A stretch of DNA of 64,000 nt from Halopelagius longus (GTDB lineage: Archaea > Halobacteriota > Halobacteria > Halobacteriales > Haloferacaceae), in contig NZ_FNKQ01000001.1 in the NCBI RefSeq assembly GCF_900100875.1, positions 744,001-808,000 on the forward strand, written 5' to 3'. The first letter of the stretch is position 1, and every line of letters starts with the position of its first letter. The position numbers and the translations under genes are program-made. Below, piece by piece: positions 19,092 through 48,759 of the stretch. The notes beneath the pieces were generated by a model. It worked only from the letters and a program-made list of their open reading frames with translations, searched no databases and was not told where the DNA came from.

Positions 19092-19166
19092 GGGTTGGTG
19101 GTCTAGCCCGGTTATGACGGCTCCTTCACACGGAGCAGGCCGGCGGTTCGAATCCGCCCCAACCCA
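19092..19166 (+). tRNA. tRNA-Val (anticodon CAC)
   Basis: The 7-bp acceptor stem pairs GGGTTGG with CCAACCC. A GCTCC/GGAGC anticodon stem encloses the loop TTCACAC, giving anticodon CAC (valine codon GTG). The T arm is GGCGG-TTCGAAT-CCGCC, and the discriminator base is A. The CCA end is not encoded. The last 13 bases (19154-19166) are the left copy of the attachment-site repeat of the integrated element that follows, and the tRNA gene remains intact. Confidence 0.97.
19154..19166 (+). repeat. attL core (tRNA 3' end)
   Basis: The core is CCGCCCCAACCCA, the 3' end of tRNA-Val. An identical 13-mer occurs at 45622-45634 next to tandem tyrosine recombinase genes. Tyrosine recombinases commonly use tRNA 3' ends as integration targets. 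Confidence 0.85.
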
Positions 19167-22752: not shown

Positions 22753-24852
22753 TCAACTGAACGACTCTAAACTACACTCGGTGTGTGAACTCAGATAGCG
22801 CTCAATCCGTCGTTCGTGCCATCCAATCGGCGATAGGATGCTTTCTGCTGCCTGTATCAGTTGATCGCGGTAGAACGGCCCGTCGTACTCCGAGGGCTCT
22901 TCGCTCTTGAGGACGACACGGTCTCGAGACGACTTCTCGTCGTCGACGACGACGTACGACACGTTCTGGCCTGGGCGTCGGGTGAGTCCCTTTCCGTCGG
23001 CGCGTTTCAAGGCGGCGACGTTCCGGGTGTTCTGCGTGTACTCGTCAAGCGACTTCGAGACACGATTGTTCACGACCAGTCGCGTCGGGTCAATGGCCCC
23101 ACGTTCGAGGCGATCGATCATCGTGCGGAGTCGCTCACACACCGCTTCCGGGTCGCGGGTTTCGTCTAGGGCCTCGATGAGTTCCCGCTGTGCATCCTCG
23201 ATGTACGTCGGTGTACTTCGTTGACGGCACTCGATACCTCGATACTTATACTCATCAACACCGGCTACCTTTCCGAAGTACTTCGTGAGGGCACCGGCGT
23301 CGGAATCCGCACGGGGAACAAATGCAATCCAGTCGTACTCGGCCTCGTACTCTAAGCGGATTCCCACGTCCTCAGTGATCTGGGCTGCAAGTTCGTCAAG
23401 CGGCGTCTGTTCCGCGCCGTCGACGGGGGTTACCCAGATGCTGTCGACAATTCCGTGGACGACACGCCACCCGTTCGCCTCGAAGACGGCCTTGCTATCG
23501 AGAAGGATTTCGCGCGCGAAGGCGTTGATCGCCTCGTGGCACTCGATTCGGCCGAACTTCGCGTTGGAGAATCCCTGATACCCGAAACACGAGACGAGTA
23601 TCCACTTGATGGCGTTCGACTGGCCTTCGAGGGCGGCCTGCCGGTCGGGGTCCTTAGTGTCCTCTAGTTCCTCCTTGATAGCATCACGATCGGCGATGAG
23701 CGGTTCGAGAACGTCGGGGAGATACCCTCGTTCGTCACAGATGGAGTACCCCAGTCCGGGGACATCGTCGCGGTCGGCGTGACAGTCACACCGAATCTTG
23801 TCTGGGCTCACGTTTCGAGTGACGATGATATTCGGGAAGAGCGAGGAGAAGTCCAGTTCGTGGACATCCTCGTGCAACCCAACCTCCGGAGTGAACGTGA
23901 ACCCACCTCGGTCGGCCGCATGGAGTTGTCGCATCGTCTTGAACTGCTCGTGCCGCCACGAGTGCCACGGGACGAGCACGCCGCGAGACCGTGCCTCTCG
24001 TATTTGGATGGCCGTCAGAACGTTGCCGATCGAGGACCACGCCAACTCTTGGAGCGGCTTGTGCGACCGAGAGACGAGGTCGAGACAGCCGTCCAAGTTC
24101 GTCTGGTCCCAAAAGAACGTATTCGACTCGTCGATGATGACCCGACCCGGGACATTGTAGCGGGCAGGCGAGTGACCGACCTGTCCGTAACTCTCGTACG
24201 TAGACTCGCCGGCGAGCGTCTGATAGCCGGGGAGCCTCCCGAGTGCGAACTCCGAGATATCGTACTGGTCGGCCTGTTCGAACAGCCGGGGTATCAGCTC
24301 ACTCGACGATACTTGCAGGACATCAGGGTCGTCTTCCTGAATCTGCTCGCGTACCCCCGTCAGCACGTCATCCGGGACGCCCGACAGTAGTTTATCTCCG
24401 ACTTTTATCTCCGTTATCGGGGGTGAGGCGAGTTCGGCTTCGTCTACGGCGAGACGGAGAACCGAGGGTCGCTGCGTTGGCGTCGGGTCGACGCCCGCCT
24501 CCAGACAGTATCGGTACTCTCGGGAGAAGTCGACGTTGTAGAGGCGGTAGTCGCCGGGTGATCCCCACCCTCTGACCTCGTTGGCGACGTTCGTCACAGC
24601 ATCGAGGTCCGCGACATCGACGCGCAAGACCGTCGTCGGGTCGTGCCGAAAGCCAACCTGTTCTTCGACCTGCTGCGTCGCCTCAACTTGAGGGTGGTTG
24701 CGAAGGTATGCTGCGGCTTCTGTGAGGTCGCCACCGTGGACGGAGACGTATATCGTCGGCGTGTACGAGTCGTTGCGTGTCACCGTCGTTCCGTCGTCGG
24801 TGAGCGACCATTCGAGTACTGTGCCATCTCGGTAGTCGATCTTGTAGGTCAT
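22753..24852 (-). CDS. B-family DNA polymerase, proofreading residues not evident
   Basis: A 699-aa B-family polymerase, shorter than replicative PolB. Motif A is LDFSSLFPNIIVTRN (about residue 330). Motif B is SNAIKWILVSCFGYQGF (about 420), with V where Asn is usual. Motif C is VVHGIVDSIWV (about 467), where the usual YGDTDS has become HGIVDS but keeps the second aspartate. A thumb-type motif YKYRGIECRQRS follows. In the exonuclease region, Exo I (normally DIE) and Exo II (normally N-x3-FD) are replaced (RLAVDEAEL and VLQVSSSELIPRLF), so 3'-5' proofreading is probably lost. The ATG overlaps the stop of the 90-aa gene upstream. It is probably a repair/translesion or element-replication polymerase. 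Confidence 0.9.
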   Translation of the reverse strand: MTYKIDYRDGTVLEWSLTDDGTTVTRNDSYTPTIYVSVHGGDLTEAAAYLRNHPQVEATQQVEEQVGFRHDPTTVLRVDVADLDAVTNVANEVRGWGSPGDYRLYNVDFSREYRYCLEAGVDPTPTQRPSVLRLAVDEAELASPPITEIKVGDKLLSGVPDDVLTGVREQIQEDDPDVLQVSSSELIPRLFEQADQYDISEFALGRLPGYQTLAGESTYESYGQVGHSPARYNVPGRVIIDESNTFFWDQTNLDGCLDLVSRSHKPLQELAWSSIGNVLTAIQIREARSRGVLVPWHSWRHEQFKTMRQLHAADRGGFTFTPEVGLHEDVHELDFSSLFPNIIVTRNVSPDKIRCDCHADRDDVPGLGYSICDERGYLPDVLEPLIADRDAIKEELEDTKDPDRQAALEGQSNAIKWILVSCFGYQGFSNAKFGRIECHEAINAFAREILLDSKAVFEANGWRVVHGIVDSIWVTPVDGAEQTPLDELAAQITEDVGIRLEYEAEYDWIAFVPRADSDAGALTKYFGKVAGVDEYKYRGIECRQRSTPTYIEDAQRELIEALDETRDPEAVCERLRTMIDRLERGAIDPTRLVVNNRVSKSLDEYTQNTRNVAALKRADGKGLTRRPGQNVSYVVVDDEKSSRDRVVLKSEEPSEYDGPFYRDQLIQAAESILSPIGWHERRIERYLSSHTECSLESFS

Positions 24853-25121
24853 CGGGTGCTCTGGTCGCCCACATCGTCTTGGTCAACGTGAGCTTCAAGT
24901 TCGTCAATTCGGCGTTCCTGTTCCAGGACGATCGAGACGATCATCGGTATCTCGGGGGTGCGATGATTCAGGTAGCCCGCCGCGTCAGCGTGGGCACGCA
25001 CGTGGTCGAACAGGCGGTCGAAATGCGGTTGGTCACGGCGACGGAGCGCCCTCCGGAAGTCGCTCCAGTCGTCTTCGACAGCGCGAATCGTGTCTCGGAA
25101 CGTCGGGTTAGTTCGGCCCAC
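24849..25121 (-). CDS. DUF8156-like small protein between RadA-like and PolB, 90 aa
   Basis: Begins at GTG 25121 (MGRTNPTFRDTIRAVEDDWS), then FRRALRRRDQPHFDRLFDHV and AHADAAGYLNHRTPE, ending in a predicted coiled coil (VSIVLEQERRIDELEAHVDQ). The MGRTNPT...W..FRRALRRR pattern is that of haloarchaeal DUF8156 proteins. It overlaps the RadA-like gene by 14 bases and PolB by four (ATGA). The tight coupling suggests it bridges or regulates the two partners. The ATG-initiated longer frame to 25226 would lie wholly over the RadA-like gene and is rejected. Confidence 0.75.
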   Translation of the reverse strand: MGRTNPTFRDTIRAVEDDWSDFRRALRRRDQPHFDRLFDHVRAHADAAGYLNHRTPEIPMIVSIVLEQERRIDELEAHVDQDDVGDQSTR

Positions 25122-25791
25122 CGATCTGCACCTCCATCGGGGCCGGCGTCTCGATCTCGTCGAAGACAGCATGGCGGGATGAGAGGACACGCCGCCAGAA
25201 CGCGAACGTCGTCTGCACGAGGCCATCCTCGACCGGATAGACTAGTGTCTCGAACTCGTCACCGCTGAATCGCGGGCCGAAGGCTGTCTGCTCACATTGG
25301 AGGACCGTTGTCGACACGTCCGCGACGGGTTCCGAAAAGGCGTCGTCGGTCGTCCGTGTAACCAGTACGGGGAGGTCGTAGTCCACGGCCAGTCGGACGA
25401 CGCGACGAAGTGCCGCCGTTAGCATCTGGTCGGCCTCCTGGGATCCGAGGTCGTCAGCACGATAGAACGCGTCAACATCAGGAAGGACTACGAGTTCGAC
25501 GTCGTCAGGAAGTTCAGCGGGGATATCATCGATCAGACTGTAGTGCTGCCACGGAGTGAACGCCCGCGCAATATGCACTCGGTTGAGAACGCGCATGCTC
25601 GGCGCGAGTTCGGCCATAGGCTGAGTCGTGCCGTTTCCACGCGAATCGATCCAAACGGCCGACCCGCTCTCTAATAGGATATGGTCAAGGACGAGCGAAT
25701 GCAGCGCACCCGATGCTCGGTCTTCCATTTCGAGGAGCGTCACGCCTGTGTCGAGAGTCGGTAGTTCTGGTATCGTTCGACGCGTCATCAC
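25108..25791 (-). CDS. RecA/RadA-like protein with degenerate P-loop, 227 aa
   Basis: The layout is that of a RecA-fold core: an N-terminal strand and loop where Walker A should be (VTLLEMEDRASGALHSLVLD, with Lys-Thr replaced by Ala-Leu), a strand AVWIDSRGNGTTQ, and a Walker-B-like strand DDVELVVLPDVDAFYR. Further strands (LPVLVTRTTDDAF and STTVLQCEQTAFGPRF) follow. It lacks a functional-looking ATP site, so a structural or recruitment role, as in bacterial ImuA/SulA-type RecA relatives, is more likely than recombination. The stop is overlapped by the DUF8156-like gene. A TATA-like element lies just upstream near 25797-25806. Confidence 0.68.
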   Translation of the reverse strand: MMTRRTIPELPTLDTGVTLLEMEDRASGALHSLVLDHILLESGSAVWIDSRGNGTTQPMAELAPSMRVLNRVHIARAFTPWQHYSLIDDIPAELPDDVELVVLPDVDAFYRADDLGSQEADQMLTAALRRVVRLAVDYDLPVLVTRTTDDAFSEPVADVSTTVLQCEQTAFGPRFSGDEFETLVYPVEDGLVQTTFAFWRRVLSSRHAVFDEIETPAPMEVQIGGPN

Positions 25792-25833
25792 GTTATACAG
25801 TCTATCACCCCTGTCAATAGGCGACGCGGGGTC

Positions 25834-25852
25834 GTTTCCGTTGTTTCCGATA
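25834..25852 (-). repeat. 19-bp motif, copy upstream of RadA-like gene
   Basis: GTTTCCGTTGTTTCCGATA on the plus strand, 43 bases before the RadA-like start. It matches 26919-26937 at 17 of 19 positions. Both copies sit in the same orientation upstream of a minus-strand gene of one module, as expected of a shared operator or an initiator-binding box. Confidence 0.6.
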
Positions 25853-25857
25853 TCGGG

Positions 25858-26871
25858 TTAGGAGAGGTCCGTTCGAGGGCGGTACGTCCGGGCGCGCTTC
25901 TCTCCGTCGGCAACGACGAGGCGGTAATGCTCCATCTTTTGCAAGTAGTTTCGGACCGTCCGCTTCGTCTTCGGGTTGTCGACGCGCCGGCAGTACTCGT
26001 CGTAGAGTTCGCCCGGATTCGTCTCCCCTTCTTCCTCCAGAATCTCGAAGAGGACGCGCTGATGCTGCCGTAATTTCTCGACCGCCTTGCGACGAACCTC
26101 GGCCCGTCCGTCGGGGACTGCATCCTCGACGATATTGCTCGTGATGTGATCCTGCCCAGCCTGTTGTGCTTGCCGGGCAGCGTTGCGAAGTATTCCGATA
26201 GCAATGCGTGCGTCCCCTGCTGCGGCATCAGCGATAAGCGCCAATTGAGGCTTTCCGATAGCGTCTTCCGTTAACCCCCACCGGGTTCGCGCCTCCAGTA
26301 TCGAAACCAGTTCATCGAGATGGTACTTGTCGAAGTTGATGCGGACGCAACTCTGGAAACGGCTACTTAGTCGGTCATCGAGATATGAGAATAGGTCTTC
26401 CTCGCGATTCGTGATAAGAATCGCCGTGATGCCCCGCGTTTCGTATAGATCGTAGAGGACGCTCTTATCTTCGAGCTGGTCGACTTCGTCAAGGATGACG
26501 ACGTAGTGGGGACCGTCGTAGTTCCGGAGGCGATTCAGGAGTTCATCTGTCGGGGTCGACCGCCGGTGGATGTCGACCGTCTTTCCGATACCGTCCAGGA
26601 CGCGGTAGAGGACTCGGAATCGCGTGTAGTCTTGCCAGCAGTTGATGTACTGCGAGTTGATGTTGAGGACGTTCTCCCGAAGGCGTTCGGTCGTAAACCG
26701 GGCGATACACGTCTTTCCTGCACCCGATGGACCGAGAAGCAGGGATGTCTCGCCTGGCTCTTTGTGCATAATGGGCTTGAGGGCGTTCGAGAGGACGTTC
26801 ACCTCCTGGTTTCGATGCTCAACCTCCTTCGGTGTGAATTCCGGTTGGAGGACGCGAGCATCTGTAATCAT
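25858..26871 (-). CDS. Orc1/Cdc6 family replication initiator, 337 aa
   Basis: Begins MITDARVLQPEFTPKEVEHR, the typical haloarchaeal Orc1/Cdc6 N-terminus. Walker A is GPSGAGKT at residues 47-54 and Walker B is VVILDEVDQL. Sensor 1 is AILITNREEDLFSYLDDRL with SSRF, and AGDARIAIGILRNAAR is the sensor-2 lid. The last 80 residues form the winged-helix DNA-binding domain (YDEYCRRVDNPKTKRTVRNY). Such a gene on a mobile element normally marks its own replication origin. It is the first gene of the minus-strand module ending with the polymerase. Its promoter region holds one copy of a 19-bp motif repeated upstream of the next gene. Confidence 0.92.
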   Translation of the reverse strand: MITDARVLQPEFTPKEVEHRNQEVNVLSNALKPIMHKEPGETSLLLGPSGAGKTCIARFTTERLRENVLNINSQYINCWQDYTRFRVLYRVLDGIGKTVDIHRRSTPTDELLNRLRNYDGPHYVVILDEVDQLEDKSVLYDLYETRGITAILITNREEDLFSYLDDRLSSRFQSCVRINFDKYHLDELVSILEARTRWGLTEDAIGKPQLALIADAAAGDARIAIGILRNAARQAQQAGQDHITSNIVEDAVPDGRAEVRRKAVEKLRQHQRVLFEILEEEGETNPGELYDEYCRRVDNPKTKRTVRNYLQKMEHYRLVVADGEKRARTYRPRTDLS

Positions 26872-26918
26872 GGCTGGGCGGGTGTTTTCTCGGCAATACA
26901 GATAAACGGAATTGTGTG

Positions 26919-26937
26919 GTTTCCGTTAGTTCCGATA
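26919..26937 (-). repeat. 19-bp motif, copy upstream of Orc1/Cdc6 gene
   Basis: GTTTCCGTTAGTTCCGATA, the partner of 25834-25852, about 48 bases before the Orc1/Cdc6 start. The TTCC/GGAA content recalls archaeal origin-recognition boxes, though it is not a full match to the known ORB consensus. Confidence 0.6.
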
Positions 26938-27028
26938 CTAGGCTGTTCCCGCCATCCATCCTGGACAGAAGAATCTCTTATGTATAGAGACAACTTCATT
27001 ATCTGTCCGTTTCCCCCTTTTGAATACC

Positions 27029-28717
27029 GTGGAGAAGGTTACTCGATTAATTGGTGCCCATCACGCCCTTGATGAGGTGACTCGGTTAGACGAGTTCGAA
27101 TCTTGGGTGACTCAAAACTTCGAGGGTGACGACCAGGATCACATTAAAGGATACAAAATCTTGGTCAGAGCACTCTTCCGGACTTTTCAGGAGGAGCTGA
27201 ACATTCACAGGAAATGCCTGGACATTGAGTCTTCGTTTGAATATTTCCGTGCAGAATCGTCGATAGCAGATATTGATTCGTTGGAAGCCAATTGTGAGGC
27301 TTCACATCTACTCAAACATCTCAATGAGTTCGACCGGCGCCTATACCGTGCCCACAATCGAGAGTATCTCAATAGGGAGCTTGCTTCACTTAGGAGCGAT
27401 GTCATCAAGCCGTTCAATGAACTCTTCGAGAAGTACGGTCGAACGAAGACAACACTTGATCTCTCTGAATACTTTGACTACCAGGCAATCAAAATAGTTC
27501 TCCCTGCCGTCAACGATGCCAACCGAGGTTACCCGGAGGCATACCAACACGGCTGGCTTGATAGGCGTTACACTCAAGCGGAGCTTGATGCCAATTTTGA
27601 GAGTTATACAGCGGCGCTCTGCTGGCTCTATGCGGAGCTGGCCTTGAACGAGACAGAGCTATTGACGGTGCAGGAGGCACTCTTTGACGCTGACGACTGG
27701 AGAGAATTAAACCGTACGTACGGAGAGGTACGGGATACGATTCTCCAGCCCATCGAAGACCGCGTTGACTCCAATTCTGCCTCCTATGAAGTCGATATAC
27801 CCGACTCATCCACCGAAGTCGACCATTTGCTAAAAGGCGCACCTGATCCGGCAGTCGGGATTGAGAAGTCGCTCGATCGGATCTTTCTTTGGGAGGACAC
27901 ATATAGGGGTGACGAGGTATTCGTTGGGTCTGGAAGTGCAGGCTTCATTCTCGTGTTACGAGGCCTCCAATCGATTCGCGATCAGCTTGATACGGACGAG
28001 CCGATCCAGATACGGAGACTGAAACATCCCGACGAGCCGGGCTACAACTACTCCTATGCTGTCGAACACGCCGGCTGGGCGTTCGACAACACGGGCAGCC
28101 TGCATGGCTGGGCTGTTTTTGTCCGGGTAGCGACCGACTACTCCGGATTTGGAGGAAGGCAGTACAAGCTCGTGGAGGAGCTCCTTGAACAACTGACTGA
28201 CCAAGAGGTAATTGAAGTAAAGGAGCTCGAAGTTCCAGAGGACGTTCTCCGGACGTATTTGGAGGAGCAACAGGTGTCTCACGATCGGTACACACAATCA
28301 GAAGAGCTTGAATTCGATAACCGGCGTCTCGATCGGATCATTGCTGGTGATGAGGGGACTCGAACGGAATTCAAAGAGGAATTTCTCGACTCGATGATCG
28401 AAGTCGGAAAGGAGATTGCAGCACTTGCAAACTACAAAGGGGGTGTGCTGATCTTCGGTGTTGATGACGAGGGAACGGTACGGGGGGTCGAGAACCAAGA
28501 AGAAGTCGAAAACAAGATTTCGGGGATACTGTGGGACATGATGGAACCGCCGCTTAGTGCCGATCTCTATCCAATCACCTATGAAGGGGAACCGATTGTC
28601 ATCGTCGATATCCCCGAAGCAGATGAGCCCGTTGCCTGTAATTTCACCTACTACTTCCGGAATGGGACCAACGTTCGGAAGCTCACGTATCAGGAGTTAA
28701 AACGGCGGTTTGGGTAA
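27029..28717 (+). CDS. Large protein with C-terminal Schlafen AlbA_2 domain
   Basis: A protein of about 562 aa. Residues 1-420 are helical and unassigned, with an aromatic-rich patch (GYNYSYAVEHAGWAFDNTGS). The last 130 residues are a Schlafen AlbA_2 domain: GTRTEFKEEFLDSMIEVGKE, then IAALANYKGGVLIFGVDDEG and a YYFRNGTNVRKL end. AlbA_2 domains occur in tRNA-cleaving Schlafens and in many prokaryotic defence proteins. GTG 27029 is chosen as the start; TTG 27020 is an alternative. GC is visibly lower than in chromosomal genes. It is paired with a second AlbA_2 protein downstream, so a defence function is inferred. Confidence 0.8.
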   Translation: MEKVTRLIGAHHALDEVTRLDEFESWVTQNFEGDDQDHIKGYKILVRALFRTFQEELNIHRKCLDIESSFEYFRAESSIADIDSLEANCEASHLLKHLNEFDRRLYRAHNREYLNRELASLRSDVIKPFNELFEKYGRTKTTLDLSEYFDYQAIKIVLPAVNDANRGYPEAYQHGWLDRRYTQAELDANFESYTAALCWLYAELALNETELLTVQEALFDADDWRELNRTYGEVRDTILQPIEDRVDSNSASYEVDIPDSSTEVDHLLKGAPDPAVGIEKSLDRIFLWEDTYRGDEVFVGSGSAGFILVLRGLQSIRDQLDTDEPIQIRRLKHPDEPGYNYSYAVEHAGWAFDNTGSLHGWAVFVRVATDYSGFGGRQYKLVEELLEQLTDQEVIEVKELEVPEDVLRTYLEEQQVSHDRYTQSEELEFDNRRLDRIIAGDEGTRTEFKEEFLDSMIEVGKEIAALANYKGGVLIFGVDDEGTVRGVENQEEVENKISGILWDMMEPPLSADLYPITYEGEPIVIVDIPEADEPVACNFTYYFRNGTNVRKLTYQELKRRFG

Positions 28718-29088: not shown

Positions 29089-30546
29089 ATGAAGCGACGA
29101 GAAACTACACAAGACCTGCTAGAGATTTTTGGAAAAAGTCCTGGTGCAGAGAGTTCAGATCTCGAATTCAAATCGCTTGAGATTTTGAATACAAAGGGCC
29201 AAAAGAAGAAACTGGTTCGCGTCCTCTCTGCTATTGCGAACGGGGGTGGTGGGACTGTAATAATTGGAGTAAGACGTGAAGGGGACGATATTAGATTACA
29301 GGACGTCTCAGTTGATCGTGAGATACGACAGGAGCTAACCCACATCGCCCAAAACTATGCTAGTCCTGCTCTTACTGACCTTTGGGAGATCAAATTCGAG
29401 GAACATATGGGGAATAATTTACTTCGAATTGACATTGATAAGGCTACTGTCGAGCTAATTAAATTCGATTATGAAGGCGAGTGGCGGGTCTTTATCCGTG
29501 AAGAAGATGGGATGCGAGAGATGTCATCAGGTGAGATATCAGAGTTCTACAAGAAGAGGAAACAGCGGCAATCTTCTGCATATAAGTCGAAGATTGAGCA
29601 AATTATCCACGCAAACTATACCCCTCCAGTAGATCTTGATCGGGAATATCCAGATACAATTCTGGAGAGGGCTATCACTCGAGTTGATCCTAACTACACA
29701 GCTGTTTGTGGGCATGCAGTTATGGGAGACAGAATGGGAAAATCAGTCAGTTACCATCTAGAGACTAACGTCTCCTCCCATGGTTCATACGGTGAGATCA
29801 TCTCTCTTCTTCAGAGTGCCGATGAATGTCTGAATGCAGACTTGGGACGTAGTCTAGGCTATACGTTCCGAATAGCAGATATGCAATTGATGGGGATGAC
29901 GATTAACGGGCTCCGCGAGGATCTCTCACGGATCGCTGAAATCCAGGACACCCTTGAGGAGTATACGAGAAAAGGATGGGATTACGGCCCTGTCCTTGCA
30001 GGGTATACGTCAACTGATGTTGGTATTTTCTGGTTTGAACTACAAAAAGAAACATCGTCGTTCCTTCGAGGAAATATCGGATTCATTCTACCGGATATTC
30101 CGATTGAAGATTCGCCTTTACGAGACTTCCTTACGGAGAATGCGAGTTTACCTCCAAACTACAACCATCAGCACGGTTTACGGTTTATACATCTTAACGG
30201 ACATGGATTAGGACCGCTAAATAATCCCGTGCCTGTGGAAATCGGTGAGCATGAGGGATTAACGTACAACCATCTAATCACAGATAATCCGCTATACGAT
30301 TGGCCAGAAGAGGTTCAGGAGGCTGCAGAGTCTCCAGTTCCAGAATGGTTGATGCACGGTATATCATCAGTTGAAAGACTTCCTTCACTTGTCTCTGGGG
30401 GATATCTTGATGACGATGAGCGATTTTCACTAAATTATCTTTCTTATACCCAGGTCTCCGGAACCCATCCAACTGTCCTCGTTGACGTTTCGACGCGAGC
30501 CCTGGACACCGATGAGATCTCTATTAAATCTGAATTCAATCTCTGA
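29089..30546 (+). CDS. Protein with N-terminal Schlafen AlbA_2 domain, 485 aa
   Basis: The AlbA_2 domain is at the N-terminus (about residues 18-150): ESSDLEFKSLEILNTKGQKK, then VRVLSAIANGGGGTVIIGVR and WRVFIREEDGMREMSSGEI. The remaining 330 residues are unassigned and contain alpha/beta segments such as DVGIFWFELQKETSSFLRGN. The domain order is the reverse of the preceding gene's protein. An AT-rich codon pattern marks recent transfer. The predicted action is RNA or nucleotide targeting during infection, by analogy with Schlafen-type defence proteins (inference). Confidence 0.82.
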   Translation: MKRRETTQDLLEIFGKSPGAESSDLEFKSLEILNTKGQKKKLVRVLSAIANGGGGTVIIGVRREGDDIRLQDVSVDREIRQELTHIAQNYASPALTDLWEIKFEEHMGNNLLRIDIDKATVELIKFDYEGEWRVFIREEDGMREMSSGEISEFYKKRKQRQSSAYKSKIEQIIHANYTPPVDLDREYPDTILERAITRVDPNYTAVCGHAVMGDRMGKSVSYHLETNVSSHGSYGEIISLLQSADECLNADLGRSLGYTFRIADMQLMGMTINGLREDLSRIAEIQDTLEEYTRKGWDYGPVLAGYTSTDVGIFWFELQKETSSFLRGNIGFILPDIPIEDSPLRDFLTENASLPPNYNHQHGLRFIHLNGHGLGPLNNPVPVEIGEHEGLTYNHLITDNPLYDWPEEVQEAAESPVPEWLMHGISSVERLPSLVSGGYLDDDERFSLNYLSYTQVSGTHPTVLVDVSTRALDTDEISIKSEFNL

Positions 30547-30642: not shown

Positions 30643-31266
30643 TCATTGAAGCGGTAGGTGGTCCATTGCTCGGGAGGTGACGTGATCCGGGACTGGCCCG
30701 AGGTAGTTCCGCCGGAACGTCTCGCGTCCCGAGTCCGTCATTGCCCAGCCACCCCATGCCATCGTCAGTTCCTCGGCGATCGGAACACCCTCAAAGGCGA
30801 GCGAATAGAACGTGTCCGTCGCCCACGTTCGCCGGAGGTCGTGCATTCCCAGGTCGTGCCATCGATCATCCCCAAGATCGTCCGCGAGTTCCTCCCGCGC
30901 CTCGCTAATCCAATCGCGGAGCGACCTAGTCGAGACATCGATGATGGGTTCGTCGGCGCGGAGGCGAGCAGCCGACTTTAGGTACTTCACGCGCTCACGG
31001 AGGTCTCGAGCGACTGGCGTTGAGCGCGTTCCGGTCTTTCCGTCGGGGATGACGAGGCGCCACTTATCGTCGCTACCATCGAGACGTTCGAAGTGACGTG
31101 GCTCTACGTTTCGGACTTCGTCACTCCGGAGTCCAGTAAGAGCGAGATCGAGAGCGATACGTCGTCGAGGATAGTCTTCGTCGACGAGGTCGAGGAGCTG
31201 TTGCTGTTCGATCCGGGACAGCCAGAGTCGGCGACCAGACTTTGAAGGATAGGGTCGAGCTTGCAT
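30643..31266 (-). CDS. Tyrosine recombinase, catalytic domain only, 207 aa
   Basis: Only the catalytic domain of an integrase-type tyrosine recombinase. Active-site residues in order are Arg in ALTGLRSDEVRNV, Lys in IPDGKTGTRSTPVA, the HxxR box in MHDLRRTWATD, Trp in TMAWGGWAM, and Tyr in FRRNYLGPV. The N-terminal core-binding domain of about 100 residues is missing: the ATG at 31266 is followed at once by PYPSKSGRRLWLS. It could be truncated or belong to a naturally short haloarchaeal group. It lies in mid-element, far from either attachment site, on the strand opposite the other recombinases. Confidence 0.82.
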   Translation of the reverse strand: MQARPYPSKSGRRLWLSRIEQQQLLDLVDEDYPRRRIALDLALTGLRSDEVRNVEPRHFERLDGSDDKWRLVIPDGKTGTRSTPVARDLRERVKYLKSAARLRADEPIIDVSTRSLRDWISEAREELADDLGDDRWHDLGMHDLRRTWATDTFYSLAFEGVPIAEELTMAWGGWAMTDSGRETFRRNYLGPVPDHVTSRAMDHLPLQ

Positions 31267-36859: not shown

Positions 36860-38188
36860 CTAACGAATTTGGGTTGGTATCCAACTCTCAGGATATCCTA
36901 CAGAGATTAAATCAGACGCGGAGATGTGAGTAACTTCCCCATCTAATGGCGAGTCTCGATTCGTTTCGACACCATCACTAATTATCAATCCCTGTATATC
37001 GATGTCTAAGTCAGAGAGGTACTCTTCATACTGTGCGAACTCAATGTATTTGAGCAGTTCTTCCAGCCCTCGAGTGAAGGTCTGCTGGTTATCGCTGTAT
37101 TTGATCTCACCGAGGACGACCGCAGTCAGAACCTCTCGTGCTCGAGATTCGTATACTTCGAGGACGAGATCGGGTCGTCCGCTAAATAGAGATGGTTGTG
37201 TATCGTTTCCAAGGAAAGCATCGACCAACTCTCCGTGTCGTCGTTGTACGTTCTGGTAGCGGTCGATGTAGTCTGCCTCAATTCCCTCAAGCTCCGAGAG
37301 AGGAACGTGAAATGAAAGGCCGCCATTCTGATCATGATAGATATCGACTGTATACTGATCACTCTCGAGGATGGCTAGCTGTTTTGCCCCAGATTCGATA
37401 GGCTGTAGTCTCAAACCTCGCGAGCTGAGACAACGCAGGAGTTGGAAAATACAGAACAGTTCGAATAACCGTGGTAACCGCTCTGGAATGACGAGGGTGT
37501 TCGACAATAGTTGTGACACGTCTTCATCCTCGTACTTACCCGCCAGTAGCCGACGGTATCGATCATAGAGCCTGTAAGCATCGGTGTAGAGTGATTGCCG
37601 AGCGGTCCGAGCAGTATTCAGCATTCGCCTTGTAACCCTAATATCCTCTCCATCACGGATTCGGTTCAGATGGACATTCCGAGCATAGATGCGGTCAAAC
37701 ATAGCGATGCGTTCTGTAGGCCAGGCTTCTCTCCGCCAGTCATAGTTGATGTCAGAGATATCCTCCTGTACCGTCGAATGCACTAACCAGAGCAATTTTT
37801 TGAGGACGAGGTTTTCTCCGATATCGTACTCGGTGTAGGGAGTCTTGCAGGCGAACCGCGTTCGGTCACCAGCCGACTCGGTGTACCGAACTCGGGTTGT
37901 TGCCTGCCAGTCGATACCGCCGCGAACCTCTCCTCGGGTGATTTCTCGATCCCGCTGGTTAGCCGTCTTGATACGCCGAAGTCGCCCTTGCAGCGTCTCG
38001 ATGAAATCGACTACATCGCTACTGAGACAGAAGTGAATCCGTTTGAGGCGATCAATCTCGTCAATGCCTAGCTCTGTAATGTCGAGCGTACGAGCGACCG
38101 CCTGCTTGTTTACCGTCCCATTCTGAAGGTAGGTGATCAGCTCTTCCCGGACACCATCAACCAATTCTGCGTGCTCTAACTTACTCAT
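36860..38188 (-). CDS. McrC-type nuclease subunit, 442 aa
   Basis: The partner of the McrB-like gene just upstream, which it overlaps by eight bases. The C-terminal third has a PD-(D/E)xK nuclease: SGRPDLVLEVYESRAREVLT (Asp at about residue 340), then VVLGEIKYSDNQQTFTRG with the E-x-K at about 362, and a following helix LLKYIEFAQYEEYL. The N-terminal two-thirds are helical, as in McrC-like proteins that dock on the hexameric motor. In type IV restriction, McrC cuts DNA carrying modified cytosines recognised by McrB. It is last in a four-gene minus-strand operon. Confidence 0.85.
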   Translation of the reverse strand: MSKLEHAELVDGVREELITYLQNGTVNKQAVARTLDITELGIDEIDRLKRIHFCLSSDVVDFIETLQGRLRRIKTANQRDREITRGEVRGGIDWQATTRVRYTESAGDRTRFACKTPYTEYDIGENLVLKKLLWLVHSTVQEDISDINYDWRREAWPTERIAMFDRIYARNVHLNRIRDGEDIRVTRRMLNTARTARQSLYTDAYRLYDRYRRLLAGKYEDEDVSQLLSNTLVIPERLPRLFELFCIFQLLRCLSSRGLRLQPIESGAKQLAILESDQYTVDIYHDQNGGLSFHVPLSELEGIEADYIDRYQNVQRRHGELVDAFLGNDTQPSLFSGRPDLVLEVYESRAREVLTAVVLGEIKYSDNQQTFTRGLEELLKYIEFAQYEEYLSDLDIDIQGLIISDGVETNRDSPLDGEVTHISASDLISVGYPESWIPTQIR

Positions 38189-41100
38189 CAGATCGAGGTG
38201 GCAGGTCGAAAAAGTCCTCAGCTTTCTGTTTTAGCCGGGATTCATCAAGCGTTAGATCAACAATGCCTGCTTCTGTCTGCACACTCGTGGCAGTAAGTGA
38301 GTCGATCAGACTCCGCTGATTTTGGGGTGACATCCCCTCAAGTTGCGGGAATACTAGTGCGATGACGGCGTCTGTCAATGCGGGACCAGGATCTTCGAGT
38401 GTCGAAGGGCCACTCGCAGCAAGATAACCGAGCATATCTCGGACAATCGATGGACCGATGGTCTGGTGTTTGTTGACCCTATGCCAGATTACGGATAATT
38501 GTTTGTACGTTGCCTCTAAGGGTTTGAGGAGGGATTCATCAGCCTCAGTCCATACGGTCCCGTAGTTCTCTTCTGCGTCTGGATTCAGAAGCGATGTTCG
38601 TACACGACCATCCTTTGATAGTGACGGCACGCCGACGTGCACGAAGTTGAAGCGTCGCATGAACGCGTAGGAGAGTTCGTAAAGTGACGTCTTGTCATAG
38701 GTATTCATCGTCGCCAATAGTCGCCATGAGGGTGTAACCGGGAAGATATCTTGGTTTGTAACGATAGACTCCAGAACATCGTCAGTAGTTGATTCATCAA
38801 GTGAAGCAATCTCGATAGGAGACTCCCGTTCATAGGGTAATTGAACGGAGTCACCTGAGAGTACCGAGAACAGTTGACCGAATGCCTTGTCGATATCTGA
38901 CCGATTGATTTCGTCAATCACAAGCCACTCATTGCAGATAGAGCCATCTTTCCGGAAGCAGTCTAGGAAGATACGTGGTTGGAAGACAAGTTCGTCGCCC
39001 TCCGCCGATCGGTTTGGTATGTATCCACCAATAGTATCGAAGGTGGTCCACTCAGCAGTCGCTGTAGTGAATCGATATCCATCAACGATATCTCCATGCT
39101 GGTTAGAAACAGTCTTGCTGACGTGCTTTGCCAGTTTAGTCTTCCCCGTCCCTGGGGGACCAGTAAATATGATGTGTTTCCCTGAGTTGAGTGATGATTG
39201 GATTTGACGTCGGAGGTCAGCCTCCGACTCGTAGTAGAGTTCGTCAGGGAGCTCGACAGAGACGTTCAGAGATGAGAGACGCGCTCGAAGATCCTCGATA
39301 CGCTCATTGAGTGGGAATACTGAACGGATAGCCTCAAACGCGCGTTTAGATAGTGGGAATAATGTTCCTCGTGCATTATCCCGGATCACCGTTGTCCCTT
39401 TCAATTCATCTAGTGAAGAGAGCATCTGCCAATCGACTGGCGCGAGGGAGTCGTCGTATCGGATGGTGATTCCCTCGACTGGTTCATTGCGATGTTCTGG
39501 CTGTTCCTTATGGAGTCCCTCAGCCACAGTTCCCTCCCCAACTATCTGCTGGACAGGTGAGGACTCGTAGAATAGCACTCGATCCCCAGGACGGGCTCTC
39601 TCGAATTCTTCGTAGAGCCGTCGTTTCCTCCCAGATTCGTTATAGGCCGTATAGAAGACCTCCTCCCCTTTGTCGATAGACTCTAAATCCCAAATTTCTG
39701 GACTTGCGGTCATCCAGAAATAATTCGGCCCGCCTGCCTCTGCGAGCTCTAAGATCGACTCATACTGCGGTTTTGAGAGTTCTGTGATGACGTAGTTGTT
39801 GTTCGTCTCAATGAGCTCGCTTCCTTCCAATTGCGGAATTGACTGTATTTGGTCCCAGTCGACTCCCTCAAGTGAGTCATCCCATCCAATGGTAATACCC
39901 TCAACTGATTCATCACGGGTCTCGGAATACTCTTCGTGGAGTCCAGCCTCAATGTGCCCCCGGCCGACAATTGCCTGTGTAGGCGCATTCCGGTATATTA
40001 GGACTTTATCGCCCGGACGTGCTTGTTTATATGCGGACTGGTTCCGCCGTTGTCTACCCTCACTCGTGGTGGTTTTGTAGAACGCTTCACCATCTTCGCG
40101 GTGCCAACTCTCACTCGCTGAGTTCACCCAGAAGTAACGGGTTGAGGAATCCCTGTGCCCATTATCTACTCGGGTGAGATCCAAACGATCTACCGTCTCA
40201 TTGATTACCGTGTCCTCATTCTCTGCTAACTCTTGGACTACCATACGTCGAGCAACCGCACCGACGAAGTGATCAAGTTGAGCATTGAACTCCTCTACAG
40301 TCCAGTTGTGGAATAATTTCTTACCCTCCTTGAGGCAGTTTACCGCAATTCCGTGGTCCGAAAAGGGATACCAGTCAACACTAATCAAAACCTCATGATC
40401 AAAATCAGATGGCCCTACAGCGGAGGGATCATCTAATTCAGCCATCGTCTCGAAATGTGCTTGAGTAACGCGTCCGACACCGAATGCTACGTCAATCTTG
40501 GTCTTCGGGGCCCCAGCGACGACAATGTCTCCCTCTTCAATCTCCTTTTGGACGTTGTATGCCTGCCGCTCCGGGGAATTGTGCGTTTCTGGAGGAGAAT
40601 CGATTTCCTCATCTGGACGGAAAACCGCCTCTTTTGTGAATCCAATCGATGCAATTCCCTCCTTCTGCCAAGTGGTCCAATAAGGGTCATCACCACCCTC
40701 TGGCGAAATTTTCCACACGTTCGCACTATCCTCTTCGAATTCAGGGACAGAATACAAGATATCGAGCAGGTTCTGATACAGCCCAACGATCTCAATTAAG
40801 TCCTTAGTGAGGGTGTCGTTTGCATCTTCACCAAGATCGTCTATGTCATAGGCCCGGTAGACGATGGTTCCCGCATTATATTTGTCAGCTCTATTCACAG
40901 GTTCCTCCTCACTATCTAAGACCACTTCCTCCGTTAGTTGAGATGGACCACCTGTGAACCGATTTGGCCAATCAATTTGTGAGCGATAGGATTCTGCATG
41001 CCGGGAGAGTATCTCTTTGGAGTATGGAGGTCCAGTAAGGCCTGAGGCTCGTTGTGCCTCAGTCGCGCCTTGGTTTAGCGTAAGATAGAGCGTCTCTGCA

Positions 41101-41408
41101 TCGGTGTCAAAGAGATATACGACGTAGATTCCCTTCTGAGTTGTCTGTGTTTCCTCTGGTATTTGGATAGGGATATAGGGGATATCAGACATATCCCCCT
41201 GCCCCATTGAGGGTCGAACGTGGAACGTATCATCCAGGTCACCAAGAACTCCTTTCGTTGCCTGTTCTGCTTTATTTGTGACGAGATCAAGTAGATCCTC
41301 GTCCGTATTGACTCGTGTATATTCTCTCCCTCTGCCAATGCGTTTGGGAGAAGGATACTGTTCAAGAATTTGTTTGAGCACTTCTCCGAAACTGGGGGTA
41401 CCCGCCAT
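38181..41408 (-). CDS. McrB-type AAA+ restriction motor with EVE/PUA-like modules, 1075 aa
   Basis: Modules in order are as follows. (1) A MrcB N-terminal domain, with VVYLFDTDAETLYLTLNQGA at about residues 100-120. (2) A PUA-like module around 225-330 (WKISPEGGDDPYWTTWQKEG and GDIVVAGAPKTKID). (3) A first EVE domain at 420-545 (YFWVNSASESW...GDKVLIYRNAP). (4) A second EVE domain at 560-690 (YFWMTASPEIW...GDRVLFYESSP). (5) An AAA+ motor with Walker A GPPGTGKTKLAKHV near 750, Walker B WLVIDEINRSDID near 825, and sensor/arginine region MNTYDKTSLYELSYAFMRRF near 900. EVE and related domains read modified bases, so the protein should sense modified foreign DNA and drive McrC cleavage. Two full EVE copies plus a third PUA-like module is unusual. 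Confidence 0.9.
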   Translation of the reverse strand: MAGTPSFGEVLKQILEQYPSPKRIGRGREYTRVNTDEDLLDLVTNKAEQATKGVLGDLDDTFHVRPSMGQGDMSDIPYIPIQIPEETQTTQKGIYVVYLFDTDAETLYLTLNQGATEAQRASGLTGPPYSKEILSRHAESYRSQIDWPNRFTGGPSQLTEEVVLDSEEEPVNRADKYNAGTIVYRAYDIDDLGEDANDTLTKDLIEIVGLYQNLLDILYSVPEFEEDSANVWKISPEGGDDPYWTTWQKEGIASIGFTKEAVFRPDEEIDSPPETHNSPERQAYNVQKEIEEGDIVVAGAPKTKIDVAFGVGRVTQAHFETMAELDDPSAVGPSDFDHEVLISVDWYPFSDHGIAVNCLKEGKKLFHNWTVEEFNAQLDHFVGAVARRMVVQELAENEDTVINETVDRLDLTRVDNGHRDSSTRYFWVNSASESWHREDGEAFYKTTTSEGRQRRNQSAYKQARPGDKVLIYRNAPTQAIVGRGHIEAGLHEEYSETRDESVEGITIGWDDSLEGVDWDQIQSIPQLEGSELIETNNNYVITELSKPQYESILELAEAGGPNYFWMTASPEIWDLESIDKGEEVFYTAYNESGRKRRLYEEFERARPGDRVLFYESSPVQQIVGEGTVAEGLHKEQPEHRNEPVEGITIRYDDSLAPVDWQMLSSLDELKGTTVIRDNARGTLFPLSKRAFEAIRSVFPLNERIEDLRARLSSLNVSVELPDELYYESEADLRRQIQSSLNSGKHIIFTGPPGTGKTKLAKHVSKTVSNQHGDIVDGYRFTTATAEWTTFDTIGGYIPNRSAEGDELVFQPRIFLDCFRKDGSICNEWLVIDEINRSDIDKAFGQLFSVLSGDSVQLPYERESPIEIASLDESTTDDVLESIVTNQDIFPVTPSWRLLATMNTYDKTSLYELSYAFMRRFNFVHVGVPSLSKDGRVRTSLLNPDAEENYGTVWTEADESLLKPLEATYKQLSVIWHRVNKHQTIGPSIVRDMLGYLAASGPSTLEDPGPALTDAVIALVFPQLEGMSPQNQRSLIDSLTATSVQTEAGIVDLTLDESRLKQKAEDFFDLPPRSDE

Positions 41409-43292: not shown

Positions 43293-43530
43293 ATCGGAAT
43301 GATCGATCACGGAGCGAGCCAGTAGGATGGTGCTCCGTATGTTCCCAGAGGGGAGCGTACGGTAAGTGCGTTTTCCATCAACCTATTGCGTTCGTTCCTG
43401 GGCCTCGTCGTACCCTAATTCGACGAACGACTGAACGAATGCAGATCAAAACCAAACGACAGATCCGACAACGTGGAAGTAGAGTCCGCTGTAGACCTCG
43501 CAGGTCCACCATTGCAGAAGAAGCACACCT

Positions 43531-43536
43531 GGAGGT
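43531..43536 (+). promoter_or_regulatory. Ribosome-binding site of first recombinase
   Basis: GGAGGT lies eight bases before the ATG at 43545. It sets that start against the upstream ATG at 43473. Confidence 0.65.
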
Positions 43537-43544
43537 TGAAGTCT

Positions 43545-44516
43545 ATGAGTAACGGACTAACTCCCAAGGCACCTGCCGAGGCTGTAAAGGAGTACCTCAA
43601 TGCGAGGGAGTCCAAACTATCGGAAACGACTATAGAGAGTCAACGAAATCGGCTGGAGGCATTCGTTGAATGGGCAGAAGAGAACGGGCTCCAGAATATG
43701 AGTTCACTCAGCGGACGAGATATCCACTACTTCCGTATGTGGATTGAAGAGCGTGTTGAGCCAGTAATTCTTGCGGGCCATTTGCAGACTCTCAGAGAGT
43801 TTCTGGAGTTCTGTGCTTGGAGAAGCGTAGTTCCGAACGGGATCTCTGAGCGGGTTCACATCCCGACAGTAGAGCCTGAAGAGGAGACACGAAACCACTT
43901 CTTAGGGCCGGATCGAGGAAAGGCAGTACTGGACTATCTTCATCAATTCCAGTACGCCAGCCGTGACCACGCCCTGTTCACACTTCTCTGGCGAACAGGA
44001 ATTCGACTTGGAACGTTGCGATCGTTCGACGTCGGCGATTTCGACGCTGGAGCACAGTTACTCCGTATTCGGCATCGACCGAAGACGGAGACGCCCTTAA
44101 AGAACGGAAGTGACGCGGAGCGGTCAATTAGCATCAGTAGTAGTACCAGTAACGTAATTCTGGACTACATCAACCATCATCGATGTGATGTCATCGACAG
44201 ATACGATCGAAATCCTCTGATCACGACTCAACAAGGCCGGGTTAGTAGAGGAGCAGTCCGAGACGCAGTTTATCGGGTTACTCGCCCGTGCGTGATTGGG
44301 AGCTGTCCCCACGATCAGGATCCGAAAACATGCGAAGCTATGGATTCTGGTTCGCCCCAGAAGTGTCCGAGCTCGCGCTCACCTCATAGTATTCGCCGCG
44401 GATCGATGGCGTGGTTCCTTCGCCGAGGGACATCGTCAGAGCTCGTCTCTGATCAGATGGACGTATCGAGAGGCATCTTGGAGAGTTACTGGGGTACGGG
44501 GGGTGAGTGGGTTTGA
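43545..44516 (+). CDS. Tyrosine recombinase, first of a tandem pair, 323 aa
   Basis: A XerC/D-like integrase. The core-binding domain at residues 10-105 starts PKAPAEAVKEYLNARESKLS. The catalytic domain has Arg in RTGIRLGTLRSFD, Lys in TPLKNGSDAERS, HxxR in SPHSIRRGSM and Tyr in ILESYWG. The His/Trp between HxxR and Tyr is Asp here (DQMDVS). A cysteine-bearing insert (VIGSCPHDQDPKTCEAMDSG) before HxxR looks like a zinc site common to haloarchaeal members. It overlaps the second recombinase gene by ten bases. Its place beside the right attachment repeat makes the pair the likely integrase of this element. Confidence 0.9.
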   Translation: MSNGLTPKAPAEAVKEYLNARESKLSETTIESQRNRLEAFVEWAEENGLQNMSSLSGRDIHYFRMWIEERVEPVILAGHLQTLREFLEFCAWRSVVPNGISERVHIPTVEPEEETRNHFLGPDRGKAVLDYLHQFQYASRDHALFTLLWRTGIRLGTLRSFDVGDFDAGAQLLRIRHRPKTETPLKNGSDAERSISISSSTSNVILDYINHHRCDVIDRYDRNPLITTQQGRVSRGAVRDAVYRVTRPCVIGSCPHDQDPKTCEAMDSGSPQKCPSSRSPHSIRRGSMAWFLRRGTSSELVSDQMDVSRGILESYWGTGGEWV

Positions 44517-45607
44517 GCGACTCACCGACCTACGAGGTACCTATCGCCGGTGAAACCGATGGTAGTGGAGACCGGATCCCTGACCTCTCACCGCGGGAAG
44601 CATTAGAGAGGTGGCTGAGCAGCATTCGCGTCTCAAAGGCAGAGTCGACTGTCTCAGCGTATTGGTATCAACTCAAGCACTTTGCCGAGTTCTGCGAGGA
44701 GGAGGAAATCGTCTCGATCAGCGATGTGTCGGGATGGGACCTCGAGGAGTACAAGAACTACCGCCTTTCAACGGGGATGAAGGCCGCGACGTTGAACAAG
44801 GAGTTCCTCACGTTGCGCAGTTTCCTCCAATATTGCGCCCGTGTCGAGCTCGTCGATGATTCGCTCCCGGAGAAGGTCGACCCGCCGGACGTCTCGCGAG
44901 ACGAGTTCGTTGATGACACTCGACTCCACTCGGATAACGCGAAATCACTACTCGACTACTACGAAGCGAACGAGTACGGTTCGCGTGCCCACGTACTACT
45001 CGCATTAGAGTGGTACACCGGCGCCCGTCTCGGGGCGATCCGCGGTCTCGACATCGACGATTACGATTCGGAGAGGGAGTACCTGCAGTTCTTCCACCGA
45101 CCGGCCGACGATACACCGCTAAAGAACGGCAAAGACGGAGAGCGGGCTGTCGGTCTTCCGACGGACATCTGCGAGATTATCGACACCTACCTCGCGGAGA
45201 ATCGGCACGCGGTGCACGACGACAACGGTCGGCGTCCCTTGGTAACCAGCGAGGTTGGTCGTCCGTCGAGGAACGCAGTCCGAGCGTGGACGTACATCGC
45301 GACCGTTCCGTGTATTTACGGTGCATGTCCTCACGGGAACAACCCGGAGACGTGCGACTACCTCTCGTACTCCACCGCCAGTCAATGTCCATCGTCCCGA
45401 AGCCCGCACCAGGTTCGGACCGGCTCGATTACGTGGCAGCTGAATCGGGGAGTGCCAATCGAGAAGGTGGCGAAACGGGTGAACACCTCAGTTCGCGTAC
45501 TGAAAAAGCACTACGACAAGCCGACCGAGCTGGAGGACCTCGAAGAGCGCCGTCGTGAGTACGTCGATCGTCTTTCCTTCGGCGATTCTGAGGGGGGTGG
45601 AGCATGA
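44507..45607 (+). CDS. Tyrosine recombinase, second of a tandem pair, 366 aa
   Basis: Related to the preceding recombinase but not a recent duplicate. The N-terminal core-binding domain is SPREALERWLSSIRVSKAES. Catalytic residues are Arg in YTGARLGAIRGLD, Lys in TPLKNGKDGERA, HxxR in SPHQVRTGSITW and Tyr in LKKHYDKP. The intermediate His/Trp is replaced by Asn (RVNTS). The insert IYGACPHGNNPETCDYLSYS again carries paired cysteines. GC is higher than in its partner. The GTG start at 44507 lies within the end of the first gene. The stop is 15 bases before the attR core, as expected for an integrase of this element. Confidence 0.9.
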   Translation: MGLSDSPTYEVPIAGETDGSGDRIPDLSPREALERWLSSIRVSKAESTVSAYWYQLKHFAEFCEEEEIVSISDVSGWDLEEYKNYRLSTGMKAATLNKEFLTLRSFLQYCARVELVDDSLPEKVDPPDVSRDEFVDDTRLHSDNAKSLLDYYEANEYGSRAHVLLALEWYTGARLGAIRGLDIDDYDSEREYLQFFHRPADDTPLKNGKDGERAVGLPTDICEIIDTYLAENRHAVHDDNGRRPLVTSEVGRPSRNAVRAWTYIATVPCIYGACPHGNNPETCDYLSYSTASQCPSSRSPHQVRTGSITWQLNRGVPIEKVAKRVNTSVRVLKKHYDKPTELEDLEERRREYVDRLSFGDSEGGGA

Positions 45608-45621: not shown

Positions 45622-45634
45622 CCGCCCCAACCCA
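45622..45634 (+). repeat. attR core
   Basis: CCGCCCCAACCCA, identical to the tRNA-Val 3' end at 19154-19166. Sequence before it belongs to the element (recombinase stop at 45607) and after it to the chromosome. Confidence 0.85.
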
Positions 45635-45867
45635 CTTCTCTTCGAGACCACCGACGAGCGATAGCGAGGAGACCGTGTATCGAAGTGACCGTATTCTCCG
45701 CTGATTCGGGAAGTCAATATAACGGACGGGAAATTATAATATCATAGACACCATTGGCTCTACGTGCACACCGTGCTACATACTGGCACGGTTCCGAAGC
45801 CGGATAGATCCAGAGAACAGTTCCAGCGCCGACCGTTGGAGCACCTAAAAGCCACAACAGAAAACCG

Positions 45868-46845: not shown

Positions 46846-46976
46846 ATATCGGCAAGTCACACTTCCGCGCCGAAGCACCGCTCAGACCACCTCAGCGAGG
46901 AATCGGCCCCTCACCGGTGGACGATGAGCAGTTCTTCGATGGAAACAGTCTTCGTCGAATCCTGTCAACGTCGCCT

Positions 46977-47171
46977 ATGGATAGAAACGAACTGTACCGC
47001 GTCGTCGGACTATTTCTCTTGGCGATGGTGACGCTAGCGAGTGATCTCTCGTCGCTTACGTTCCCAGCCAGCGTATTCGGCTCTCTCGCGTTTGCCGTCT
47101 CCGTTGCCGTGATGATTCTCGCACCGTCGTACGTCATCGCGGATACCGTGATGGAACTGACCGAGAGATAG
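46977..47171 (+). CDS. Small two-helix membrane protein, 64 aa
   Basis: MDRNELYRVVGLFLLAMVTL begins a helix, and VFGSLAFAVSVAVMILAPSY forms a second. A short polar loop separates them and the tail is acidic (DTVMELTER). The start at 46977 is chosen because the codons upstream show no coding pattern. The protein is of unknown function with no export or binding motif. Confidence 0.6.
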   Translation: MDRNELYRVVGLFLLAMVTLASDLSSLTFPASVFGSLAFAVSVAVMILAPSYVIADTVMELTER

Positions 47172-47270
47172 GCCGTCTGTGCCGAGCGTTTGTCGCCGTA
47201 GAGTCGTTATTCGCTGCGTCCGCCGCGAGAACGCCTCCGAGTCGGCACTCGACCCTCTCTGCACCTCCGA

Positions 47271-47984: not shown

Positions 47985-48168
47985 GCCAGTCTCGTCTGGC
48001 GTACTACCGGACGACCCTTCGACCTTTGGAAGGCGGGGCGGTCCACCCGACGCCGCGGTGCCCACTCTTCTCTCGGAGAGACGGTCTATCTGACAGGCAG
48101 TTATCGACTCTCAACATATTTAGGTACAACACTTTGGGGGGTGGAGGACGTTCCTCGAAGTAGAAACG

Positions 48169-48525: not shown

Positions 48526-48759
48526 AAGCCTCGCTGCGGTGTGCCCCGTCGCGCCGAGTCGGGCGGCGGAGCGGACCAGTCCGTCCCCCGGTCGGTTACC
48601 CCCTCCGACCGAGGTCTTCGATGACCGATTCGAGCCTGAAACACACGCGAGTGACACATTCTAACTGAACTACGGTTTCCATCGAGCGACGCTGTACTAT
48701 CCGTCGGATTGGCCAAACAGTTTACAGACGTACGACGTCCTCAGTTCGGTGGTGGTTCT

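Follow-up and report, generated by a model that had tools for sequence, protein, structure and literature searches.

A PolB2 mutasome operon, its linked Orc1/Cdc6 paralogue and their shared promoter box on an integrative element of Halopelagius longus

Gene content of the PolB2 operon

We analysed a 64,000-nucleotide stretch of the haloarchaeon Halopelagius longus (contig NZ_FNKQ01000001.1, positions 744,001 to 808,000; hereafter the window, whose own numbering is used throughout), in which four minus-strand genes form a PolB2 mutasome operon (iRadA, PPB2 and PolB2) together with a linked Orc1/Cdc6 paralogue. A check of the open reading frames (ORFs) found all four at the coordinates of a first-pass annotation made from the letters of the window, which had listed them as an initiator-type protein, a RecA-fold protein, a coiled-coil protein and a B-family polymerase. 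In the direction of transcription they are orc1 (25858..26871, 337 aa), iRadA (25108..25791, 227 aa from a GTG, with an ATG at 25788), ppb2 (24849..25121, coding for a helical partner of the arCOG07300 type) and polB2 (22753..24852, 699 aa), the stop of ppb2 overlapping the start of polB2 (ATGA); the ORF list holds no Y- or C-family polymerase gene within the operon. Conservation of the gene order had been proposed as a check, and the same order and adjacency recur across dozens of haloarchaea, so the arrangement is not a product of chance. In archaea, orc1/cdc6 genes have been reported as enriched beside polB2 (Timinskas 2025, PMC11791011).

The RecA-like product matches Rad51 above the Pfam cut-off, and its AlphaFold2 (AF2) model (pLDDT 80) matches the structures of Dmc1, RadA and Rad51 (best E 8.5e-12, TM 0.63). 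It has no working P-loop: with the register set by eye, the Walker A motif of RadA (GEFGSGKTQ) is replaced by EDRASGALH, which lacks the Lys-Thr pair, as had been noticed at first pass, and the Walker B Asp is lost too (VVLPDVD where RadA has LIVDSL). The length of 90 aa given for the coiled-coil protein was upheld and its start refined to the GTG at 25121, which lies 7 nt after GGAGGTG and yields a product beginning MGRTNPTFRDT; this MGRTNPT start is conserved in relatives and gives the protein the diagnostic MGRT terminus. The MGRT arm, the inactive iRadA and an Asp-to-Ile change in the polymerase were defined by Timinskas 2025 (PMC11791011), who modelled PolB2, iRadA and PPB2 as a 1:1:3 complex.

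The polymerase matches the PolB2-type subfamily model NF004418 at 1119 bits (cut-off 692), as well as the Pfam family DNA_pol_B. Throughout an alignment of 19 relatives the motif A Asp (D334, in DFSSLF/YPNI) and the motif B Lys (K416) are invariant, and motif C reads HGIVDS, with its first Asp changed to Ile (I468), its second Asp kept (D470) and both of these residues, like the His, invariant; the altered motif C of the first-pass annotation is thereby confirmed. The reported absence of Exo I and Exo II residues held as well, since the positions of Exo I (DIE) and Exo II (NxxxFD) read AVD and SSSELI (by eye, anchored on DPDVL), and thus the active-site residues of the exonuclease appear to have been lost. 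No PDB polymerase aligned by sequence to the exonuclease region (archaeal polymerases match residues 264-683 only), so the N-terminal and exonuclease parts must be highly diverged. Archaeal PolB structures nevertheless align with the AF2 model of PolB2 along its whole length (about 800 columns); with a pLDDT of 67 and a shallow underlying alignment, the model is of mediocre quality and no claim is built on its details.

A catalytically dead PolB2, within a complex of structural or regulatory function, which was the original proposal for the family, would agree with the Ile that replaces the first catalytic Asp in all 19 relatives and with the long-standing annotation of the family as inactivated; the family was reportedly published also in Rogozin 2008. 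Set against this, the motif A Asp, the motif B Lys, and the second Asp and the His of motif C are all invariant here, and Sulfolobus Dpo2 carries the same Asp-to-Ile change (IID in S. islandicus PolB2, PMC11791011), yet its activity equals that of the replicase; we regard an inert polymerase as highly improbable. Besides being active, Dpo2 shows no detectable exonuclease and extends mispaired and lesion-opposed ends, which establishes it experimentally as a translesion extender (PMC8764526); in vivo, mutagenesis induced by damage is attributable to it (PMC7390963). The label of a low-fidelity polymerase, used at first pass, does not suit the family, considering that this characterised PolB2 copies undamaged DNA accurately (PMC8764526).

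At the C-terminus of PolB2 (22756-22790) most haloarchaeal sequences of the same alignment have a conserved LxxF-like tail (ECSLESFS here), possibly a degenerate PCNA-binding motif. A PADLOC match of the polymerase to a homing-endonuclease model was set aside as a probable artefact of inteins in that model.

A promoter box common to orc1, iRadA and split polB2 genes

The promoters of orc1 and iRadA in the window have TCGGAAnnnACGGAAAC in common, placed 19 nt before a TATA-like element. The orc1 box (TAGTATCGGAACTAACGGAAACCACACAATTCCGTTTATCTGTA, 26897..26940, minus strand) has its core 19 nt before TTTAT and the box of the iRadA-ppb2-polB2 operon (CGATATCGGAAACAACGGAAACGACCCCGCGTCGCCTATTGACA, 25812..25855, minus strand) 19 nt before CCTAT; a position upstream of BRE/TATA is the usual site of an archaeal activator. 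Both conform to the consensus TCGGAAn3(A/T)CGGAAAcgAcC, which lies within a 44-nt motif described by a position weight matrix. Trained on 27 orc1 and 36 iRadA upstream regions (near-copies removed, no polB2 promoter included), the motif reached 25.9 bits from these 63 sequences, as compared with a mean of 9.4 and a maximum of 10.0 bits in 20 shuffled sets. In the window's closest relatives 25/44 columns of the box are identical, versus 4/55 in the flanks.

The box proved close to exclusive in its positions. Among the sites scoring at least 18 bits in 2.8 Mb of strands (82 loci), 57 lie before iRadA, 33 before orc1 and 47 elsewhere, and nearly all of the latter precede a polB2 that is split from iRadA-PPB2, or a second copy of iRadA. 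In a held-out test the box was found before polB2 in 36/39 split loci and in 0/34 unsplit ones (p 1.1e-17, relatedness uncorrected), and in 18/20 split loci once near-copies were removed. Thus, the box recurs before each part of the module when the parts stand separately. A scan of the home genome (3.9 Mb) with the search model R1 returned only the two window promoters as significant (E 4.3e-5 for orc1 and 9.3e-5 for iRadA), the next best site having a value of 0.28. In 60 related genomes strong sites again lie almost all before orc1, iRadA or polB2; R1 had been built from 33 sites, some of them among these very matches, so that the matches are partly, and the specificity is not, a matter of construction. 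The exceptions were a VOC-family gene (genome G041) and, in G043, a PD-(D/E)XK nuclease gene that follows Orc1 and is preceded by a second, weaker box. The short pattern CGGAAN4CGGAANCGAC was useless in this GC-rich genome (242 matches at 2 mismatches), and the 44-position model was used instead.

A damage gene of the SRAP (HMCES/YedK-type) family is convergent with the linked Orc1 in 26/80 loci (L010, L012, L026 and 23 others), and several of the SRAP upstream regions have another motif in common, GTTAACCAACA. Control of SRAP genes by the box was considered and dropped, as all 26 SRAP upstream regions score below 1 bit.

The linked Orc1/Cdc6 paralogue as candidate box reader

The window Orc1 has an intact Walker A (GPSGAGKT) and Walker B (VVILDEVD), matches Cdc6_lid, scores 172 bits with TIGR02928 (slightly under the 181-bit cut-off) and has a C-terminal winged helix that aligns to 2qby. 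When compared with the other Orc1s of these loci, the linked ones group as a single, separate clade (support 100/100). Proteins were labelled as linked according to their identity with the window Orc1, so that the clade demonstrates distinctness and not, by itself, linkage, which shows in the comparison of split and unsplit polB2 loci. Box and linked-type Orc1 co-occur over the 60 genomes (21/6/5/28, p 1.3e-6) and also within the PolB2-positive ones (p 0.005). In two genomes (G043 and G057) a linked-type Orc1 is present without PolB2, and the box is kept at the orc1 promoter.

We propose that this Orc1 works as a transcription factor, by analogy with Sulfolobus Orc1-2, an Orc1 that is not an initiator but a regulator of damage genes and that binds ANTTTC both in its own promoter and in those of other genes. 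It is not classed as Orc1-2, because the sequence of its box differs from ANTTTC. The core CGGAAAC resembles the published haloarchaeal origin recognition box (ORB) TAACAGCGGAAACAGTGGGG, minus its G-string, and an ORB-like core without the G-string is what would be expected for a reader of the Orc1 family.

Several observations weigh against Orc1 as the reader. Four genomes (G011, G024, G033 and G040) have boxed PolB2 genes while lacking any Orc1 with an identity of 45% or more; a fifth (G041) has the box without PolB2 and without a close Orc1. The hexamer ANTTTC of the Sulfolobus DNA-damage-responsive element (DDRE) is absent from the box, the complementary strand of the window boxes giving GGTTTC or CGTTTC, and the genome comparisons are not phylogenetically independent. 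A different host factor (such as a general regulator of damage genes or a specific TBP/TFB pair) could therefore read the box, Orc1 being just another gene of its regulon; the four to five genomes with boxes and no close Orc1 would suit such a factor, as would the fixed 19-nt spacing between box and TATA, which recalls contact with basal factors. Having just two significant sites in a whole genome, however, suits a dedicated regulator more than a global one, the box accompanies the Orc1 clade even into PolB2-free genomes, and its core has the ORB likeness described above, so that we consider a host factor rather unlikely.

Orc1/Cdc6 proteins are generally initiators, and the first-pass annotation had offered, beside mutagenic repair, a special replisome for the element, in which Orc1 would initiate replication of the element and the PolB2 complex would help replication or fork restart. 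The Orc1-PolB2 association had similarly led Makarova 2014 (PMC4104785) to suggest a role in replication initiation or origin regulation, and many copies of the PolB2 operon reside on plasmids. Yet an origin beside orc1 found no support: neither direct nor inverted repeats of at least 9 nt occur at 26840-27200, and no ORB array with G-string lies there, the promoters (those of iRadA and polB2 included) having single boxes that lack the G-string. Furthermore, most plasmid copies have other, unrelated Orc1s nearby, PolB2 is dispensable in Halobacterium and reported (unpublished) to be deletable in H. volcanii, and the Orc1 clade goes with the promoter element and not with an origin. A replisome is thus not favoured, and we deem it improbable.

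At PolB2-free loci the box has other neighbours. In G043 (locus L175, C4:46000-58000) the linked-type Orc1 is followed by the PD-(D/E)XK/Cas4-like nuclease gene with the weaker second box, and this regulator may also control a further repair gene there. In G057 (L171) and G041 (L174) the Orc1 box adjoins a gene for a two-domain VOC protein (glyoxalase/dioxygenase-like), preceding it in G041, where no close Orc1 was found.

A second PolB2 operon with a UV-B box upstream

The same genome holds a second, resident PolB2 operon (969 kb of contig C1), which is 49% identical, has the order iRadA-PPB2-PolB2 and lacks an Orc1. Its start is preceded, at a distance of exactly 61 nt, by TTTCACTTTCA, a box described from haloarchaeal promoters that respond to UV-B by induction, that of radA1 among them (Boubriak 2008, PMC2556686). 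This sequence has five exact copies in the genome, one of them 62 nt before radA; as five copies compare with three in a reversed control, the genome-wide enrichment is weak and the meaning of the box rests on its position and on the identity of the genes. The pattern TTTCA(C/G)TTTC lies upstream of three more operons of related type (L103, L104 and L130), as compared with five such sites in the other loci, scanned on both strands (1.32 Mb). The UV-B box is absent from the promoters of the element copy, which carry the CGGAA box. The resident operon is thus wired differently from the element copy, in the manner of radA.

Carriage by an integrative element at tRNA-Val

The first-pass annotation had placed the module on an element, and this was borne out by an att repeat, paired integrases and an empty site. 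The integration target is a tRNA-Val(CAC) gene (19092..19166, plus strand), whose 3' end (19154-19166) serves as attL and recurs as a 13-bp direct repeat, attR (CCGCCCCAACCCA, 45622..45634, plus strand). Directly before attR lie two tandem tyrosine recombinase genes on the plus strand, the first (43473..44516) matching Phage_integrase below the curated cut-off and the second (44507..45607), which adjoins attR, matching Phage_integrase together with a SAM-like N-terminal domain. GC content is 63-67% outside the element and 48-60% inside it. In a genome of the same genus (L179) the tRNA-Val gene runs straight into the right flank of the window, an empty site, and since the congener's sequence is uninterrupted there, the 26.5 kb between the att repeats are an insertion.

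The tRNA-Val flank served to find this site, as the gene to the right of attR is absent in relatives and was of no use for the purpose. The stretch 45672-49358, to the right of attR, is likewise absent from the congener's site; the match resumes only at 49359, so the neighbourhood holds a second insertion or deletion.

The other element genes include two of the AlbA_2/Schlafen type, an HNH gene, a DUF7845 gene and a McrB-like gene. The AlbA_2/Schlafen genes are on the plus strand (27020-28717 and 29089-30546), and the first is divergent from orc1, an imperfect palindrome (GGACAGA...TCTGTCC) lying upstream of it in the intergenic space that holds the orc1 box. A 207-aa integrase-like ORF (30643-31266) is probably a remnant of another recombinase gene. 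At 36860-41408 the McrB-like gene (MrcB_N, EVE and AAA_5; 1075 aa) is followed by a 442-aa gene in the place of McrC, probably forming with it a type IV restriction pair. No relatives of the polymerase were found in IMG/VR, and the element is therefore not of a viral type known there.

The McrB-like restriction gene on the element, the many plasmid-borne PolB2 operons, and a private regulator insulated from the host UV box would all fit a module that serves the element and not the cell, for instance by helping element DNA to survive, or to have its gaps filled, following restriction or conjugation, in the manner of Pol V relatives on bacterial mobile elements. Expression on transfer is not indicated here, and such a function, which is compatible with lesion bypass and not opposed to it, seems to us unlikely.

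A model for self-controlled mutagenic repair

In our preferred reading, to which we assign a probability of roughly two in three, the window carries a PolB2 mutasome on an integrative element, controlled by its own Orc1/Cdc6 paralogue. The comparative evidence suggests the regulatory role of Orc1, and what is known of the family points to damage-induced lesion bypass. Orc1 (an ATP-bound AAA+ protein with a winged helix) would act as a transcription factor and not as an initiator, recognising the box ahead of the TATA both at its own gene and at iRadA-ppb2-polB2; in response to DNA damage it would raise the transcription of both, by activation rather than repression. PolB2 would next be joined by a single iRadA and a trimer of PPB2; iRadA would bind PolB2 much as adjacent subunits of a RadA filament bind each other, while the MGRT arm of PPB2 would lie in the cleft. 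The complex would extend primers past lesions without proofreading, leading to both survival and mutations.

A broader claim, that haloarchaea have recruited a separate Orc1/Cdc6 clade to serve PolB2 mutasomes as private transcription factors, reading a dedicated CGGAA-type box, and that mobile elements thereby carry self-controlled mutagenic repair insulated from the host UV regulon that drives the resident copy, strikes us as somewhat better than an even bet. Orc1/Cdc6 paralogues are numerous in haloarchaea, Halobacterium NRC-1 having ten, two of which were found essential; a clade that adjoins a translesion polymerase complex and comes with a near-exclusive common box offers a concrete, testable transcription-factor job for such a haloarchaeal paralogue. 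Orc1 as a transcription factor would then occur in a second archaeal phylum after Sulfolobus, and the box would be a second candidate haloarchaeal damage box beside the UV-B box of 2008, with one genome holding both wirings.

Comparison with known systems

The module itself is of a known kind, already described in the literature; the new parts are the dedicated promoter box with its Orc1 clade, the carriage by an element, and the presence of two differently wired copies in one genome. With the published PolB2 mutasome the window has in common the order iRadA-PPB2-PolB2, the dead P-loop, the MGRT arm, the Asp-to-Ile change and the linkage to Orc1/Cdc6 (arORC2). It differs in that the operon sits on a tRNA-Val element, beside a second and differently wired chromosomal copy, and in the common box of orc1, iRadA and polB2, a description of which we did not find in the open-licence literature searched.

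The Dpo2 operon and Orc1-2 regulon of Sulfolobus likewise combine a PolB2 operon with an Orc1 paralogue (Walker A and B motifs plus winged helix) as damage-response regulator, a role proposed here for the window protein. Orc1-2 is global and reads ANTTTC, whereas the window Orc1 would read a CGGAAAC-type box, adjoins its presumed targets and seems confined to one or two promoters.

Among bacterial systems, the first-pass annotation had likened the genes to error-prone systems with ImuA. Its idea of a mutasome was right, as the genes match the named PolB2 mutasome (PMC11791011), and its choice of analogue less so. ImuA-ImuB-DnaE2 also joins a RecA relative to a lesion-bypass polymerase, but DnaE2 belongs to the C family and ImuB is a Y-family relative, neither of which occurs here, the polymerase being of the B family. 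The closer analogue is Pol V (UmuC-UmuD'2-RecA): E. coli Pol V, RumAB and MucAB also tie an error-prone polymerase to a RecA-family protein, and do so on mobile elements too. They differ in their Y-family polymerase, in UmuD' and in an active RecA, so that the architecture is similar and the polymerase not of common descent. Mobile carriage with a private regulator would make the element copy an archaeal parallel of rumAB and mucAB.

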